This document shows positions 1 to 41,793 of a DNA stretch of 41,793 bases, in pieces. This DNA is from a virus, in IMG/VR virus record IMGVR_UViG_3300030098_000851, positions 1-41,793 of that record, one strand, 5' to 3'. The notes beneath the pieces were generated by a model that did no database searches, was not told where the DNA came from, and saw nothing but the letters and a program-made list of their open reading frames with translations. The position numbers and the translations under genes were made by a program. Within the stretch, counting starts at the first letter, position 1. Each line of letters begins with the position of its first letter.

Positions 1-98
1 TGTTCACTTGATATTAAGTGAACCTTTTTATCAGGGGCTTTAACAAACGAACACAATGGTGCGGCTGTGTAATTGTTGGCGGGAATAAGGAACCACTC
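1..98. repeat. Direct repeat of the window end (copy 1)
   Basis: Bases 1-98 are identical to 41695-41792; the next base differs (g at 99, a at 41793). A gene reads in frame through the join, so this is either a circular-assembly overlap or a short terminal redundancy. The copy lies inside a coding region, which favours assembly overlap over the real packaging end. Confidence 0.9.
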
Positions 99-251
99 GC
101 GTCCCTCATCAGTCTCCCCGAAGATACCCTCACCATAAACTGATGATGCTACCATTATAGCGTTGTTGAACTCGATTAATCTCTCACGTTCGTACTCTGT
201 AAATTTCTCAGAGTGATTCTGTAAGTCAGGGAATGGGATAACGTTATGCAT
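1..251 (-). CDS. Hypothetical protein, N-terminal part (continues at 41694 across the circular join)
   Basis: The ATG at 251-249 follows a good Shine-Dalgarno (AAGGAG, five bases upstream), and the frame is open to base 1. Base 1 is equivalent to 41695, and the frame continues from 41694 to a TGA at 41565, giving 126 residues in all. The N-terminus reads MHNVIPFPDLQNHSEKF, followed by a region rich in Glu, Arg and Phe. I recognise no family and see no membrane segment. The gene lies between the XRE regulator (12 bases upstream) and the integrase, whose ATG overlaps its stop, so it belongs to the lysogeny operon. An excision or regulatory role is possible only by position. Confidence 0.8.
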   Translation of the reverse strand, partial: MHNVIPFPDLQNHSEKFTEYERERLIEFNNAIMVASSVYGEGIFGETDEGREWFLIPANNYTAAPLCSFVKAPDKKVHLISSE

Positions 252-29331: not shown

Positions 29332-29509
29332 TTTGCTTCCATGCAGCTAATTCAGTTACAAGATCAACAATCCCTGCATAACGATGGGCCTCTTCAATTG
29401 TCTGATCTGGTAAGATGCACCTCTCAGGGTACACCTCAACCAGTAGATCAATAAGCTCATACGCTGTCTCAGGAATAAACTCGTCTGCAATACCGGGACT
29501 CTCAAGCAT
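29297..29509 (-). CDS. Small hypothetical helical protein
   Basis: I choose the ATG at 29509, because GGAGGAG stands six bases upstream; longer frames start inside the reductase gene. It gives 70 residues, acidic, probably all helical: IPETAYELIDLLVEVYPERC and EEAHRYAGIVDLVTELAAWK. No family is recognised. It overlaps the end of the reductase gene by eight bases and the next gene by 35. Confidence 0.6.
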   Translation of the reverse strand: MLESPGIADEFIPETAYELIDLLVEVYPERCILPDQTIEEAHRYAGIVDLVTELAAWKQNELGLKANSTD

Positions 29510-31184
29510 TACACACTCCTCCATGTCCTGTGATTTCACATATGTCGTGAGCTTCCACGCCTTCCTCAAACTCCTCACCTAGTTTTTCCTTGGCATCTTT
29601 GTAATCAACAGGGACCAGAGGTTGCCCTCCACGTGAGCCATCAGGATAGACAGTGAACCCTCTGAGTTTATGTGCATACTTAGCTAGTGTATGGGCGAAG
29701 TCATCAACGATATCTTCGTTGTTGTATTTCGTACCCCAAGCGGGAAGGTTGATCGTGCTGGATATACACATGTCTACATATAACTGCACGTCTGCTTGGA
29801 ACTTCATCCGTCGTTCATATTGAGGAGCTAGGTCTAATGCTGATTCTATCTTGTCAGGGGATGTACCATACAGATCTATGAGTTCTTGGGCTGTGCTATC
29901 CACTACGTATTGATAGTGCCAGCGTGTACCAGCTTTTAGGTATCGGCGTTTGTATGCTACAGCAAAGATAGGTTCGATACCGCTTGAACTACCAGCGAGG
30001 ATGGCAATAGAACCTGTTGGTGCAATAGCTCTATTCGCAACAGGTCTTGAGATAGATAATTCATTGGCGAAGTTTTCACTCGTTGCGTCACTAACCCCTT
30101 TATATAGCTGAAGCCATCGACGTAGTTCTGGTGTTACTTCGTAACGACACCCTCTCTTTAAGAGCCACTCATGTATCCCCATGAGACCAAGACCTAGACG
30201 ACGGTTCTTACGACGAACCTTGTAGACCTCTTCATAAGGAAGATCAGCTTCAAGTGTTCCACAAAGAAGAAACTTTGTAGCTAACTCAACGACGGTTTTA
30301 AGTTGAGAGATGTCATCGATGCGTCCAAGATTAATTGAACCTAAGTTGCACACGTCAGAGTCGTCGGCACTGCTAACTTCACAACATGCGTTCCGAAGTG
30401 TCTCATCTTCTTTCTCAAAGAAATTAAAAGAGAACCCCGGCTCACCTGTCTTTAAACTTTGACGCACGTTTGTCTTAAAGGTTTCACCAACCTCACCAGT
30501 CTCCCAATAGTTAACCAACCAATCGGTGTCGTAATTAACTGAGATGTTCGTGTAGTCTAGCGGGGCTGGAAAATTAAAGTCAGCTTCCTTTAGTTGACCT
30601 ACGCTCATGTCAGTACCAGCGACAGGGAGATTGTACCAATCTTTAGCATGGAGCCACTCAGGAATATCAGGGTGATTCCAATTAAGGGAACCATAGATCG
30701 CACTGCGACGTGATCCCCCTTGCATTACACTACGTCCAATCGCATTGATCTTCGTAGCAGCAGGGACAACACCACTTGCTACACCTCCAGTGCCTTTGAT
30801 CGCTGCACCAGCGGGGCGATAGACAGAATAATCAACACCGATACCACCACCAGAAGATAGGCATAGCTCTGCCTTCTGTGACAGGTCTGCCCAGTCCTCA
30901 CGTGTATCTTCTTTTGCTTTTAGTAGATAACAGTTGTTAAAGAACTTCTTCATTCGACCAGCGTAATAGAGATACCGACCACCGGGGATAAACTGGAGAT
31001 TCTCCATAACCCCTTTGAGTTCTTCTTTTTCATCACCAGACATCTTGTCTCCACACACGTCTTCGACAAGGGTTCCACATAACTCAGCCCACGTCTCAGC
31101 ACCCTCATGTGCGTACTTAGTGTGGAAGATATCTTCCGAAAACTTACTTCGGAACATTGGATTTTGATTAGAACGCCACGTCAT
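29502..31184 (-). CDS. nrdJ: Class II (adenosylcobalamin-dependent) ribonucleotide reductase
   Basis: This 560-residue enzyme would reduce ribonucleotides to deoxyribonucleotides for phage DNA synthesis. Cysteine layout fits class II: C85 in FNNCY and C279 in VCNLGSINLGR as the redox pair, and C267 in NACCE (the NxCxE motif) as the likely thiyl radical residue with N265 and E269. Two C-terminal cysteines (CEITGHGGVC) would re-reduce the active site. No ATP-cone is visible, and there is no partner radical-generating subunit nearby, which supports class II. Similar reductases are known in roseophage SIO1-type podoviruses. The ATG overlaps the exonuclease stop as ATGA. Confidence 0.9.
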   Translation of the reverse strand: MTWRSNQNPMFRSKFSEDIFHTKYAHEGAETWAELCGTLVEDVCGDKMSGDEKEELKGVMENLQFIPGGRYLYYAGRMKKFFNNCYLLKAKEDTREDWADLSQKAELCLSSGGGIGVDYSVYRPAGAAIKGTGGVASGVVPAATKINAIGRSVMQGGSRRSAIYGSLNWNHPDIPEWLHAKDWYNLPVAGTDMSVGQLKEADFNFPAPLDYTNISVNYDTDWLVNYWETGEVGETFKTNVRQSLKTGEPGFSFNFFEKEDETLRNACCEVSSADDSDVCNLGSINLGRIDDISQLKTVVELATKFLLCGTLEADLPYEEVYKVRRKNRRLGLGLMGIHEWLLKRGCRYEVTPELRRWLQLYKGVSDATSENFANELSISRPVANRAIAPTGSIAILAGSSSGIEPIFAVAYKRRYLKAGTRWHYQYVVDSTAQELIDLYGTSPDKIESALDLAPQYERRMKFQADVQLYVDMCISSTINLPAWGTKYNNEDIVDDFAHTLAKYAHKLRGFTVYPDGSRGGQPLVPVDYKDAKEKLGEEFEEGVEAHDICEITGHGGVCNA

Positions 31185-37446: not shown

Positions 37447-39099
37447 CTATGAGAAAAAATAAGGGGCTTGCTCGACACTCTTAATGTCGAATGATCCAAG
37501 TGCTGGTGGATCAGGAAGCTTGACCTTATGTCTCTTTAGATTGTCGTGGAACTCTTCAAGGATTGGACGATCATAGATCCGCACGAACTCACGGCGTATG
37601 ATCTTGTTCAACCTGTCCACCTCACAGGCATGGACACCAATCGAATCATGGATACACGCCCAGCTTGTGATGGGCTTGTCTTCGCTGGCTCCCATCATCA
37701 CGACAGCTTGAAGGTGGGCAGCATCATGGGCGTGAATGATGTTGGGACTACTCGCTAGGCTTTGCTTACGCTTGTTTAAACCCAGTGATTTCTCCTCGTA
37801 CCACAACACAGCCTTACCGAAGAGTGTCTTCACTTCTTTCTTGTTGTGATTAATGTACGCTTGGCGAACCTTCATACCCATCGGTGTTCTAAATTCGAGA
37901 GGTATGTTCTCATTGGCTAGTGCCTCGACACACCCCTTGAAGTACGCCATGACTTCCATTGGTTTCTGAATAGTATCACCCAGTGATTCCATCAACGCAT
38001 CACGAAGATAGTTTGCGTTCTGAATCTTGGAGCCGGGGATGTCATCGAGATGCCCATCCTTGATGAACTGATCACGAAGACCTTGTGGAGTTACACTATA
38101 TGGGATGGTCATAACGCCACGCTTCACCGTCTTTCTTGTAACATGCCCATGACAGTTAGCTGCTGCCTCATTAGTTTCCATGTCATTAGCGATTACCTTA
38201 TCTAGGGCTTGAGCTTGGATACCGTAGATATCGTAGCGTTCATCACTGCCTGTCATGTTGACCACCTGTGCAGCACGTGCGTCACGTGACCACGCACTGA
38301 GGTGCTGTAGTCCACTCGCCGTAGCGTCAAGGTGAATAGGAATGTGAGAGACGAATGTCTCTCCTTGCATGACGTATCCTTCGTACTCTTTACACGCAGC
38401 GAGGAATTGGTATGGCTCATCAGCATCTGCCCAAAACCTTTGACCATCCAGAGGATTACGTGCGCTGTCTAGTATCAGCGTATCGTTGTTAATAACCCAC
38501 TGTACACGTTTCGCAAATGAAAGTTTATCCATCCCATACGTGTTAGCTAACCGTATGGATAACCAATGCTTACCACGTGGGCCTAGTTGTTTACCTTCGG
38601 CAAACCTAATGAGACCACGAGATAGATCGTCATTCACAAAGTTAAGGTCTTGTGACTGTGGGTACAGTCGTCCTCGAAAGTCAGGGCAGTGCGGTATCCA
38701 AAAGGTTTCACCCTTGAGGTCATGTGCCATGTTGATCTTACGATAGAGAGCTTCACGTTGACCTTGGTATTTAGCACGTGAGTTCCATACAGACTCACGG
38801 TCTGCCTTGACTGACATCTTGTCCTTCACTGTCATACCTTCCCATACGTGGTCAGGTATCGTTGGCGGCATGGGTATGTCACCACTCGGTGGTATACTGC
38901 CAAGGGTTTCGTTTCGATCCACCAGTTCTTGGACAACATCGAACACGAACTCGTTGATCTCAAGTGGTGTCTTACCAAGCACGTCACACACGTACATCAC
39001 TTCGTCAGATATAGGACGACGAAGAGATGCCGTGTGTTCGTGTAAGCCGTACTTCAAGAACGGCTCTTTAATCATGTAGTACCCACCAATGTAACTCAT
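37447..39099 (-). CDS. T7-type RNA polymerase, C-terminal (catalytic) fragment of a split enzyme
   Basis: This 550-residue polypeptide begins MSYIGGYYMIKEPFLKYGLH, matching the GGGYW region near T7 residue 280, and continues to a normal end (APYFFS, compare FAFA). All catalytic parts are present: DFRGRLY at 140-146, D258 in HLDATASGLQH (T7 D537), K326 and Y334 in the TRKTVKRGVMTIPY helix (K631, Y639), and D485 in CIHDSIG (D812). It lacks the N-terminal domain, encoded separately upstream. The two pieces add to 874 residues against 883 in T7. Start overlaps the stop of the inserted membrane gene (ATGA). A two-subunit polymerase is likely. Confidence 0.92.
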   Translation of the reverse strand: MSYIGGYYMIKEPFLKYGLHEHTASLRRPISDEVMYVCDVLGKTPLEINEFVFDVVQELVDRNETLGSIPPSGDIPMPPTIPDHVWEGMTVKDKMSVKADRESVWNSRAKYQGQREALYRKINMAHDLKGETFWIPHCPDFRGRLYPQSQDLNFVNDDLSRGLIRFAEGKQLGPRGKHWLSIRLANTYGMDKLSFAKRVQWVINNDTLILDSARNPLDGQRFWADADEPYQFLAACKEYEGYVMQGETFVSHIPIHLDATASGLQHLSAWSRDARAAQVVNMTGSDERYDIYGIQAQALDKVIANDMETNEAAANCHGHVTRKTVKRGVMTIPYSVTPQGLRDQFIKDGHLDDIPGSKIQNANYLRDALMESLGDTIQKPMEVMAYFKGCVEALANENIPLEFRTPMGMKVRQAYINHNKKEVKTLFGKAVLWYEEKSLGLNKRKQSLASSPNIIHAHDAAHLQAVVMMGASEDKPITSWACIHDSIGVHACEVDRLNKIIRREFVRIYDRPILEEFHDNLKRHKVKLPDPPALGSFDIKSVEQAPYFFS

Positions 39100-39317
39100 G
39101 CACGTCTCCTTCGTAGCCAGAATATGAATGTCATTACAGTTTGAATAGGCCAGACGATTGCAAAGAGACCAAAGATAAACACGTTGATCTCTTCATAAGA
39201 GAGACCTGTGATGTCTACGATCATGTAAAGAATCTCGACTGCTTTATCGAAGCTGACATCTACCCACTTTATACCGCTATTTGCTGCCATCTCTTTCATA
39301 CCTTTCATCCTTGTCAC
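39096..39317 (-). CDS. Small membrane protein between the two RNA polymerase fragments
   Basis: This 73-residue frame runs from a GTG at 39317 (overlapping the upstream stop as GTGA); ATGs at 39308, 39299 and 39290 are alternative starts. A polar N-terminus is followed by VDVSFDKAVEILYMIVDITG, EEINVFIFGLFAIVWPIQTV as one strong span, and MTFIFWLRRRRA. A single-span protein with a basic cytoplasmic end is expected. Its stop overlaps the ATG of the catalytic fragment, so both are translated together. Proteins with an SYEEINVFIF-type motif occur in other phages as I recall; function unknown. Confidence 0.75.
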   Translation of the reverse strand: MTRMKGMKEMAANSGIKWVDVSFDKAVEILYMIVDITGLSYEEINVFIFGLFAIVWPIQTVMTFIFWLRRRRA

Positions 39318-39423
39318 GCTGCTTGGTTTTGTTTCTGTCGTAGACCTTCTGCGATTTGACTATCCGCTTCCGATACTTCGGTTGCCGTAAGTCCTTCGCC
39401 ACTGGATTTCGCTTTCCCTTCAT
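39277..39423 (-). CDS. Small basic protein (DUF7230-like) between the RNA polymerase fragments
   Basis: The 48-residue frame starts MKGKRNPVAKDLRQPKYRKR and continues VVKSQ-like (IVKSQKVYDRNKTK), a pattern I recall from small phage proteins called DUF7230 (KRNPVAKxLRxPKYRxRVV). The ATG at 39423 has GGAG five bases upstream. Its first 110 bases overlap the low-complexity tail of the N-terminal polymerase fragment in a different frame, and its start coincides with the point where polymerase homology ends (residue 286-289). So it marks the left border of the inserted piece. It may bind nucleic acid. Confidence 0.72.
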   Translation of the reverse strand: MKGKRNPVAKDLRQPKYRKRIVKSQKVYDRNKTKQRDKDERYERDGSK

Positions 39424-40288
39424 GCCATCTCCACTCCGCTGGTTCACATAACATTGGAAGTAAGAAGGGACGATTGAACTCACACCTTCGGTGATCCTGT
39501 TCGATGGCATCACGTGCTACTTGTGTTAGCTTGACTGTCTTCTCCGTATGTCTCGTCCTTCCATACCCACGCCCAACCAAGGACATCTCGAACCATCCAT
39601 TGCCATGACGTACCAGAGTATCCAGACATTTCATGCCAATATGAAGGCGAACTTCTTTAGTCCAGTCGAGACGATCAAGGTCAGTAGACAGACGCATGAA
39701 CTTACGCGCTGCACGTGTGTCGATACGCTTACAGTTCTTGGTCATTACCTTGTAGAGATTCACACTGCCATCTTGTTTAGCCTCACGATACTGACGCTCT
39801 TTCCACAGATCGAACTCACGTTCCATCTTGATGTTCGCACCAATGAGTAACGCTGCTGCTGTCCAAGGCCGAGAGTGTGATACCTCTGGCTGTAGACCAG
39901 CGAGGACAGTACGAATGGTAACTGCTGCTATCTTCTCAGGCTGGAGACACAACATAGGCAACCACCACACGGCGGCGTGTCCCTTCTTAGAGAACCCTAG
40001 CTGTGCAACTGCTTGCTCTTCCTTAACGCCAGCAACCAGTGGTTTCATACACTGGTCAACCAGCTTCGATCCGACATCTGTATCTGCGAATGCGGATCTT
40101 CCAGTCTCACTAAACTTAGAGACATCCTTGTTCAATTCATTGTGGTATCTATCGACACCACGTTGGATGCCGCCTGATTCCCACTCCACGTTACGACGTA
40201 TCGCTGCCTCTCGCTCTTCATATGTTCGAGCGCTGTGTTGTGTCGTGAATGTGCCACGACTAAGCCCTTGATATAGATAGTTTTTCAT
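39314..40288 (-). CDS. T7-type RNA polymerase, N-terminal fragment of a split enzyme
   Basis: This 324-residue protein matches the N-terminal domain of single-subunit phage polymerases. VNLYKVMTKNCKRIDTRAAR lies near 176-195; WTKEVRLHIGMKCLDTLVRH at 209-228 corresponds to T7 DSIHVGVRCIEMLIE; NRPFLLPMLCEPAEW at 272-286 corresponds to MFQPCVVPPKPW near T7 272. Homology then stops, and 38 Gln/Glu/Ala/Ser-rich residues follow that are read over another gene. In T7 this domain binds promoter upstream DNA and nascent RNA. It must associate with the separate catalytic fragment. Start at 40288 follows AAGGAACCACTGT. Confidence 0.88.
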   Translation of the reverse strand: MKNYLYQGLSRGTFTTQHSARTYEEREAAIRRNVEWESGGIQRGVDRYHNELNKDVSKFSETGRSAFADTDVGSKLVDQCMKPLVAGVKEEQAVAQLGFSKKGHAAVWWLPMLCLQPEKIAAVTIRTVLAGLQPEVSHSRPWTAAALLIGANIKMEREFDLWKERQYREAKQDGSVNLYKVMTKNCKRIDTRAARKFMRLSTDLDRLDWTKEVRLHIGMKCLDTLVRHGNGWFEMSLVGRGYGRTRHTEKTVKLTQVARDAIEQDHRRCEFNRPFLLPMLCEPAEWRWHEGKAKSSGEGLTATEVSEADSQIAEGLRQKQNQAA

Positions 40289-40295
40289 ACAGTGG

Positions 40296-40314
40296 TTCCT
40301 TAACTAGTAAGGAA
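40296..40314. promoter_or_regulatory. Palindrome over the RNA polymerase ribosome-binding site
   Basis: TTCCTTA at 40296-40302 and TAAGGAA at 40308-40314 form a perfect 7-bp inverted repeat with a 5-base centre. The Shine-Dalgarno of the N-terminal polymerase fragment lies in one arm. It could be a repressor operator or an RNA hairpin that hides the start site. Confidence 0.5.
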
Positions 40315-40352
40315 ACACAAGGGATTTCAGTAGCTTACAAATTGTAGATCGA

Positions 40353-40398
40353 AATCATAATCCGCGTGTCGGGGGTTCAAGTCCCTCCTCCGCTACCA
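40353..40398 (+). other. attP: Phage attachment site attP: 3' part of a tRNA, probably tRNA-Met(CAU)
   Basis: This stretch reads as the 3' end of a tRNA: anticodon loop ATCATAA and stem half TCCGC, variable loop GTGTC, a T-arm GGGGG-TTCAAGT-CCCTC, acceptor strand CTCCGCT, then A and CCA. The 5' half of a tRNA is missing (the bases before do not pair with TCCGC), so it is not a functional gene. It lies just downstream of the integrase, as attP does in integrating T7-like phages. Loop ATCATAA points to anticodon CAU, so elongator tRNA-Met is the best guess for the host attB; tRNA-Ile(CAU) is an alternative. Confidence 0.85.
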
Positions 40399-40399
40399 A

Positions 40400-40440
40400 A
40401 ATTCCCTCGTGATTCCAATGAGTTACGGGGGAAATTTTTT
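40400..40440. terminator. Bidirectional-type terminator between integrase and attP
   Basis: ATTCCCTCGT and ACGGGGGAAAT form a stem with one wobble pair and a 14-base loop. On the plus strand it is followed by TTTTTT, on the minus strand by AATTTTGG. It can end integrase transcription and, after integration, the host tRNA transcript. Confidence 0.6.
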
Positions 40441-40470
40441 ATTTACTTAACATCCTTTCACTATACAGTG

Positions 40471-41568
40471 TCACATATGTGTCGTGAACTTGGCATCAAA
40501 AGTAGCACTCGCTTTGCGTGAGACCTCACTCGGAATCAAGTGTGCATACTTCTTTGTCATGGTCATAGTCGTGTGACCAAGTAGTTCTCGTATTTCATTT
40601 AGGTCATGTTCACCGGATTGCGCCAAGATACTTGCGAAGGAATCTCGCAAGCTATGGATAGTAAACTTACCCTTCTTCTTGACCAACACAGGGTCATCGT
40701 TGATCCCTGATTTCTCAATGGCTTTATCAATAGATCGAGGACGATGGATGGGTTGGTTCTTACGGCGGCGTGATTGAAAGACAAACACGTCACCATCTCG
40801 ACGTTCATTATATCTCCGCGTTAGCATGGCGATACAATCTTCTGGTAGTGCAAGGATAGTCTCGTTGTCAGTCTTGTCTCGATAGAGTTGAATCGTTCCC
40901 TCATTAAGACTGACTTGTGACCACCTGATGTCCTTGTCTTCACTCAGCCTAGCTCCCGTTGACATCAAGAGTAGAGCTAAGTCTTTCTCATCCTGATTTT
41001 CTATCAGAGAGAGGATGAGCTTGAGTTGTTCGATGGTTGCCCATCGCTTTTTCTTAAAGATAGGTAACCGAATGTCCTTCCAAGATATGAATGACACCCT
41101 GACGTTGTGATTACCCGCCAACCACGTGAGCGCACCAGAAACAAATGCTAGTTCCTGATTGATGGTTGAATTAGCCATACCTTCACGCTTGCGTGTTGCC
41201 ACATGACTCGTGAAGTCACCACCTATCAGTTGATCAATAGGTTTGTTTGGAAACTTCGTGTGTCCACTAACGTCACCATTCATACGACGATACTGTAAGT
41301 CATGGTCACGATAGTTCTTCACATGGACAGATGAGTAGTCATCAAGATATTTCTTGAGACCATCCATCAATGTCATGCGACGATACTCCCCCTCTGCATC
41401 CTTCTGTTGCAGAGCTTTGATCTTCCGTTGCATGACAGAACGGGCGGCACCAAGCGTAGTCTCACCAGTGGTCTCTCGTAGACGTACCTTACGGTGTGGA
41501 TTGAACAGTTCGACTGTCCTATCCATGTGCCATACGCCACCTCGTTGGACTAACCCACGCTCACTCAT
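40471..41568 (-). CDS. int: Tyrosine recombinase integrase
   Basis: This 365-residue site-specific recombinase has an N-terminal arm-binding region, a core-binding SAM-like domain at about 65-165 (MDGLKKYLDDYSSVHVKNYR) and a catalytic domain with R207 (STGARLSEDKDIRW), a lysine in the beta-hairpin (K232), H305 and R308 (IHSLRDSFASIL), H332 (LLGHTTMTMTKKY) and nucleophile Y341. All active-site residues are there, so it should be functional. The tRNA-like attP lies about 70 bases downstream. Its ATG overlaps the stop of the preceding gene (ATGA at 41565-41568), making it the last gene of the regulator operon. Confidence 0.95.
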   Translation of the reverse strand: MSERGLVQRGGVWHMDRTVELFNPHRKVRLRETTGETTLGAARSVMQRKIKALQQKDAEGEYRRMTLMDGLKKYLDDYSSVHVKNYRDHDLQYRRMNGDVSGHTKFPNKPIDQLIGGDFTSHVATRKREGMANSTINQELAFVSGALTWLAGNHNVRVSFISWKDIRLPIFKKKRWATIEQLKLILSLIENQDEKDLALLLMSTGARLSEDKDIRWSQVSLNEGTIQLYRDKTDNETILALPEDCIAMLTRRYNERRDGDVFVFQSRRRKNQPIHRPRSIDKAIEKSGINDDPVLVKKKGKFTIHSLRDSFASILAQSGEHDLNEIRELLGHTTMTMTKKYAHLIPSEVSRKASATFDAKFTTHM

Positions 41569-41793
41569 GGTGTAGCCTTTGCAGTGTCTGCCACATTCTG
41601 ATACATGAGATCTCGTCGGCGTGACACCACGTCATCGATAACCTCATCGAGTGTACCTGTGATATAAGGTCTATCTTTCTGCACAAATCCATTGTGTTCA
41701 CTTGATATTAAGTGAACCTTTTTATCAGGGGCTTTAACAAACGAACACAATGGTGCGGCTGTGTAATTGTTGGCGGGAATAAGGAACCACTCA
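41565..41793 (-). CDS. Hypothetical protein, C-terminal part (begins at 251 across the circular join)
   Basis: This is the remainder of the gene that starts at 251. The part after the join includes ISSEHNGFVQKDRPYITGTL and ends DLMYQNVADTAKATP at a TGA overlapping the integrase ATG. Bases 41695-41792 repeat 1-98, so that stretch is counted twice in the linear sequence. If read only in the linear window, a shorter frame from an internal ATG at 41750 (61 residues) would appear, which is misleading. Function unknown. Confidence 0.8.
   Translation of the reverse strand, partial: EWFLIPANNYTAAPLCSFVKAPDKKVHLISSEHNGFVQKDRPYITGTLDEVIDDVVSRRRDLMYQNVADTAKATP
41695..41792. repeat. Direct repeat of the window start (copy 2)
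   Basis: Identical over 98 bases to positions 1-98, with the final base of the window differing. Removing one copy gives a circle of about 41,695 bases in which the junction gene is intact. Confidence 0.9.

Follow-up and report, generated by a model that had tools for sequence, protein, structure and literature searches.

A tRNA-Met(CAU)-derived attachment site predicted between the integrase gene and the two-part RNA polymerase genes of a T7-like phage

The closest described systems are those of the T7-like cyanophages P-SSP7 and S-TIP37, in which the integrase gene is followed by a tRNA-Leu attP (PMC8776855). For S-TIP37, integration into the tRNA gene has been shown by PCR, and both int and attP are required. 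Both phages integrate, yet stable lysogens have never been found, and an integrase gene together with an attP is no proof of lysogeny (PMC8776855). The Roseobacter phage CRP-3 integrates at the 3' end of the host tRNA-Met(CAT) gene (PMC6918029), and PMC10134795 cites pelagiphages and others as also having a tRNA-derived attP next to int. For Pseudomonas phage LUZ100, read-through out of the regulator-integrase operon is the proposed source of the earliest polymerase (PMC10134795). With regard to divided polymerases, N4 RNAPII consists of gp15 and gp16, the N-terminal piece including the thumb and DX2GR motif and the C-terminal piece only palm and fingers (PMC4496689).

The window analysed here is the 41,793-nt IMG/VR record IMGVR_UViG_3300030098_000851, and positions 40353-40398 (+ strand) read AATCATAATCCGCGTGTCGGGGGTTCAAGTCCCTCCTCCGCTACCA. 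From CAT and the loop bases after it, the segment runs through TCCGC, the 3' strand of an anticodon stem, and then through a T arm and acceptor strand to CCA. The first-pass annotation described it in these terms, with no 5' half, proposed that it is an attP derived from a tRNA-Met(CAU) gene, and took the phage to have an intact integrase and an XRE regulator, and all of this stands. ARAGORN finds no tRNA gene in the 41.8-kb window, which indicates that the 5' half is absent at 40353-40398, and in an Rfam search of the window nothing reached gathering score. It is the single tRNA-3'-half-like site on either strand, as judged by a pattern search (T stem, T loop, complementary stem, then 7 + 1 positions and CCA). 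We put at about 90% the probability that these 46 nt are the attP of a temperate T7-like phage that integrates at an alphaproteobacterial tRNA-Met(CAU) gene. Besides uniqueness in the window, the evidence consists of exact matches to bacterial tRNA genes, conservation in a related phage, the adjacent intact integrase gene and the rebuilding of a complete tRNA in silico. On sequence comparison the match of the core and its conservation are far beyond chance.

The exact 46-mer is present in at least 119 genome contigs, and among the matches listed every title is alphaproteobacterial. A tRNA gene ending in the segment had been proposed as the thing to look for, and 110 of the 119 matches listed are complete tRNA-Met(CAU) genes. 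The start suggested for the host gene, AGCGGAG, needs correction, as all 110 complete genes among the matches listed begin GGCGGAG, the first pair being G1.U72. The segment had also been thought to identify the host directly, and this was too optimistic. It is carried by 36 of 385 genomes sampled evenly across Alphaproteobacteria, and the matches listed include Rhodobacterales, Sphingomonadales, SAR116, Rickettsiales, Holosporales and others, so that it is an indication of Alphaproteobacteria and of no particular genus or order. At least six genome fragments (L008, L044, L053, L066, L083 and L084) have the 46-mer at an end, with a foreign left flank and without a complete tRNA, and the viral contig L002 likewise ends in the 46-mer without a complete tRNA. 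In all seven the 46-mer probably marks the end of a different element integrated at tRNA-Met(CAU), and the site thus seems to be shared with other elements.

The segment has what is looked for in a tRNA-gene attP: the block of identity is the 3' end of the host tRNA gene including CCA, and an intact tyrosine integrase gene is 72 bp away. The integrase (365 aa, 40471-41568, - strand) matches PF00589 with E=1.4e-22 over profile positions 5-168 of 172, which is nearly full length, and phrog_1 with 4.4e-42, and the context of its HSLRDS, LLGH and YAH catalytic motifs aligns with relatives. A peptide-pattern search for integrase relatives in viral contigs found none. The start of int is overlapped by ATGA by a 126-aa ORF, the start portion of which is at 3-251 (- strand) and which runs across the contig joint once the 98/99-bp end overlap is removed. 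This ORF lies between int and the gene for an XRE/HTH_3 regulator of 97 aa (263-556, - strand; PF01381 and PF13560 above gathering score; phrog_2967). The spacing makes it likely that XRE-orf-int is an operon, with XRE as the first gene and the ORF in the middle, reading towards attP. Beyond int, attP follows after 72 bp, and a further 64 bp separate it from the RNA polymerase genes. The two ends of the window, 1-99 and 41695-41793, share a direct repeat of 98/99 bp, so that the record probably represents the whole genome as a closed circle of ~41,694 bp; the last-base mismatch may explain why the contig was not classed as having end repeats.

Hybrid junctions, which the first-pass annotation had proposed as a check, were built in silico. 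Attachment site attL, made from the host 5' half and the phage from 40353 onwards, is a complete 77-nt tRNA-Met for ARAGORN, while neither attR nor attP scores as a tRNA. On the preferred reading the tyrosine integrase would recombine the core with the host tRNA-Met gene, strand exchange probably being near the anticodon loop, at the start of the block of identity. The rebuilt host tRNA would still be functional, with its 3' end and terminator hairpin now derived from the phage, and the former 3' piece of the host tRNA would end up at the far end of the prophage. A terminator-like hairpin is present directly 3' of the CCA (40402-40433, + strand), with 14 pairs, a T run in its ATTTTTTATT tail and -20.3 kcal/mol, and would presumably end transcription of the tRNA gene once this is rebuilt; it is not evident in the relative G001, discussed below. 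Since the XRE-orf-int operon reads towards attP and the RNA polymerase genes start just beyond it, integration would send these two sets of genes to opposite ends of the prophage, and any transcription running on from the lysogeny operon into the polymerase would be lost. The exact junction sequences can be used for read searches: attL is GGCGGAGTAGCTCAG...GCGG followed by 40353-40470, and attR is 40289-40398 followed by host DNA.

No attL or attR junction was found in the sampled genomes, which may not include hosts of this phage. The samples covered the class (385 genomes), the order of genome G012 (393), the SAR116 order (136) and the Sphingomonas order (199), and the first-pass suggestion of prophages of this group flanked by the segment found no support in them: for the Alphaproteobacteria the search gave only one distant prophage and weak matches. 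This raises an alternative in which a functional attP supports no more than transient or abortive integration, the phage being essentially lytic like S-TIP37 and P-SSP7. Such a phage would fit the lack of prophages of the group among the sampled genomes, and int with a downstream tRNA-derived attP is also the arrangement of those cyanophages never seen as stable lysogens (PMC8776855). However the XRE regulator in an apparent operon with int argues for lysogeny, as does the distant T7-like prophage in an alphaproteobacterial genome (G327:C1:60001-120000, covered by L157-L159). Its fused RNA polymerase gene and its int lie at opposite ends, int next to a tRNA-Leu(CAA) gene, which is the order predicted for the integrated state; a tRNA-like piece at the left end of the prophage (35 bp, 89%) mismatches the acceptor stem of this tRNA-Leu(CAA). 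We think an essentially lytic phage unlikely, while by analogy with the cyanophages integration need not mean stable lysogeny.

The conservation of the segment bears on a second alternative, that it is a leftover of a host tRNA, acquired by imprecise excision or recombination and now unused for integration. Phages do capture pieces of tRNA genes, and the LUZ100 authors propose this for a complete tRNA-Leu (PMC10134795). However, in the relative G001 (L134; IMGVR_UViG_3300029787_000286), with 76% identity over the att region, the block is identical at 46/46 positions (47 with the next base), as against 59% on the left (66 alignment columns) and 63% on the right (75), which in an unused remnant would call for selection, or else for recurrent exchange with the tRNA gene of the host. 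The 47-bp core block is the longest identical run in the alignment, the second longest being 31.

A more divergent relative, L167, also speaks against a leftover, since in the equivalent position it carries the 3' end of another kind of tRNA. Its segment (L167:1470-1520), in the same position between int and the RNA polymerase genes, resembles the 3' end of tRNA-Phe(GAA) with CCA, and its integrase has 41% identity to that of the window. Integrase and attP thus appear to change together with their position kept, and L167 likely has a swapped integration module. The tRNA-Phe-like segment is within 2-3 mismatches of tRNA-Phe genes in 52 of 136 SAR116-order genomes, and no exact source was found at 0 mismatches in 190 genomes. 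In L165 and L166 int ends directly at the gene for the N-terminal part of the polymerase with no tRNA segment between, and the attP arrangement is therefore not universal in the group. Taken with the G001 comparison, we regard a disused leftover as very improbable. A degraded phage-encoded tRNA gene can be rejected almost outright, for although the T arm and acceptor strand are there by pattern, the 5' half is missing while the remaining 46 nt are a perfect, undegraded 3' half, identical to host genes across orders.

On the other side of attP the T7-type RNA polymerase is encoded in two parts. The N-terminal polypeptide (324 aa, 39314-40288, - strand) begins 64 bp from attP and matches PF14700 and phrog_414 positions 3-247, and the C-terminal catalytic polypeptide (550 aa, 37447-39099, - strand) matches PF00940 (2.8e-99) and phrog_414 positions 250-816. 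Between them is a small ORF of 73 aa with one hydrophobic stretch and no Pfam match (39096-39317, - strand). The N part aligns to residues 95-279 of T7 RNA polymerase and the C part from residue 313, so that the break is between T7 residues ~279 and 313, before the thumb, and both thumb and DX2GR are in the C part. AlphaFold models of the two parts had mean pLDDT of 39 and 44 and were set aside. Upstream of the N-part gene, between its start and attP, is a palindrome, TTCCTTA-ACTAG-TAAGGAA (40292-40318), a possible operator; G001 has a different inverted repeat in this position, TGGTTTCC/GGAAACCA.

The C part led to seven further contigs (L163-L169), all with the polymerase in two ORFs and an identical break, and the split is thus no sequencing error or assembly frameshift. 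An intron can also be rejected as the cause, since the Rfam search gave no group I intron signal in the gap and most relatives have a small ORF there instead: the spacer ORF, of 65-73 aa with a hydrophobic stretch, is found in L163-L166 and L169, and is absent in L167 and L168, where the spacer is 22 bp. The N parts of L163-L169 are 66-98% identical to that of the window, and the C parts 68-96%. Residues D258, K326, Y334, H484 and D485 of the C part are invariant across the contigs compared, and we take them to correspond to T7 D537, K631, Y639, H811 and D812.

The position of attP between the lysogeny operon and the polymerase genes allows a further suggestion. If read-through of the LUZ100 type applies here, integration at attP would cut that path. 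The attP would then also be a transcription switch, the polymerase being within reach of lysogeny-operon transcription only while the genome is circular (excised or infecting), and integration silencing the lytic programme through separation of operon and polymerase. Together with this we suggest that heterodimeric T7-family enzymes may have arisen naturally twice, the two-part polymerase here being split at another point than N4 RNAPII. We put this forward as a tentative proposal, possible though by no means favoured. The order of lysogeny operon, attP and polymerase does offer a simple and testable mechanism for a silent T7-like prophage.

The phage has a T7-like gene set, with a family-A DNA polymerase, a T7 primase-helicase, a Gp10A-like capsid protein, a T7 connector and a T7 terminase. 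The first-pass annotation of a temperate T7-like phage is thus sound as regards T7-like; that the phage is temperate is likely, although no prophage of the group was found in the sampled genomes. The Autographiviridae are recognised by a single-gene, single-subunit RNA polymerase, and here there are two ORFs in the window and in the seven related contigs, so we call the phage T7-like with no formal placement in that family. The best GenBank match of the connector has 42% identity, and as judged by its sequence the lineage is distinct among T7-like phages. The analysis ties it to the Alphaproteobacteria, with tRNA-Met(CAU) as the predicted integration site. The window also has a homologue of the ribonucleotide reductase large subunit (29502-31184, - strand), which matches PF02867 in three separate stretches.

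With regard to the known systems, the present phage is like P-SSP7 and S-TIP37 in being T7-like and having a tyrosine integrase gene with a tRNA-derived attP directly downstream. It differs from them in that the site is from tRNA-Met and not tRNA-Leu, the sequence is alphaproteobacterial and the polymerase is in two ORFs, and in being predicted from sequence alone. The 3' end of tRNA-Met as a site is shared with CRP-3, which belongs to a different group (HMO-2011 type); megablast of a 53-bp att query against a phage collection, from which CRP-3 may be absent, gave no match. LUZ100 (PMC10134795) and Roseobacter Autographiviridae such as CRP-804 have the same order of regulator, integrase and RNA polymerase, with temperate features as here, but with a MarR-type regulator and a single polymerase ORF as against XRE and two ORFs. 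LUZ100 has a complete tRNA-Leu upstream of int, whereas here there is only a 3' half, and a pattern search of the first 10 kb of CRP-804 found no tRNA 3' segment. A tRNA-derived attP beside int is of a kind already known, to which the present site adds a tRNA-Met example.

The conserved split polymerase beside attP is the more unusual feature. In the literature searched, largely non-subscription, we found no natural splits of the polymerase besides N4-type heterodimers (PMC4496689 and papers on N4-like phages). As in N4 RNAPII, a T7-family RNA polymerase is present as N- and C-terminal polypeptides from two genes; however N4 RNAPII is split after the thumb and DX2GR, and the break here is earlier, at T7 residues ~279-313, so that it is not a split of the N4 type. 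If the two polypeptides form a heterodimer, this would be a natural split-polymerase design to set beside the engineered split T7 polymerases as well as N4 RNAPII.
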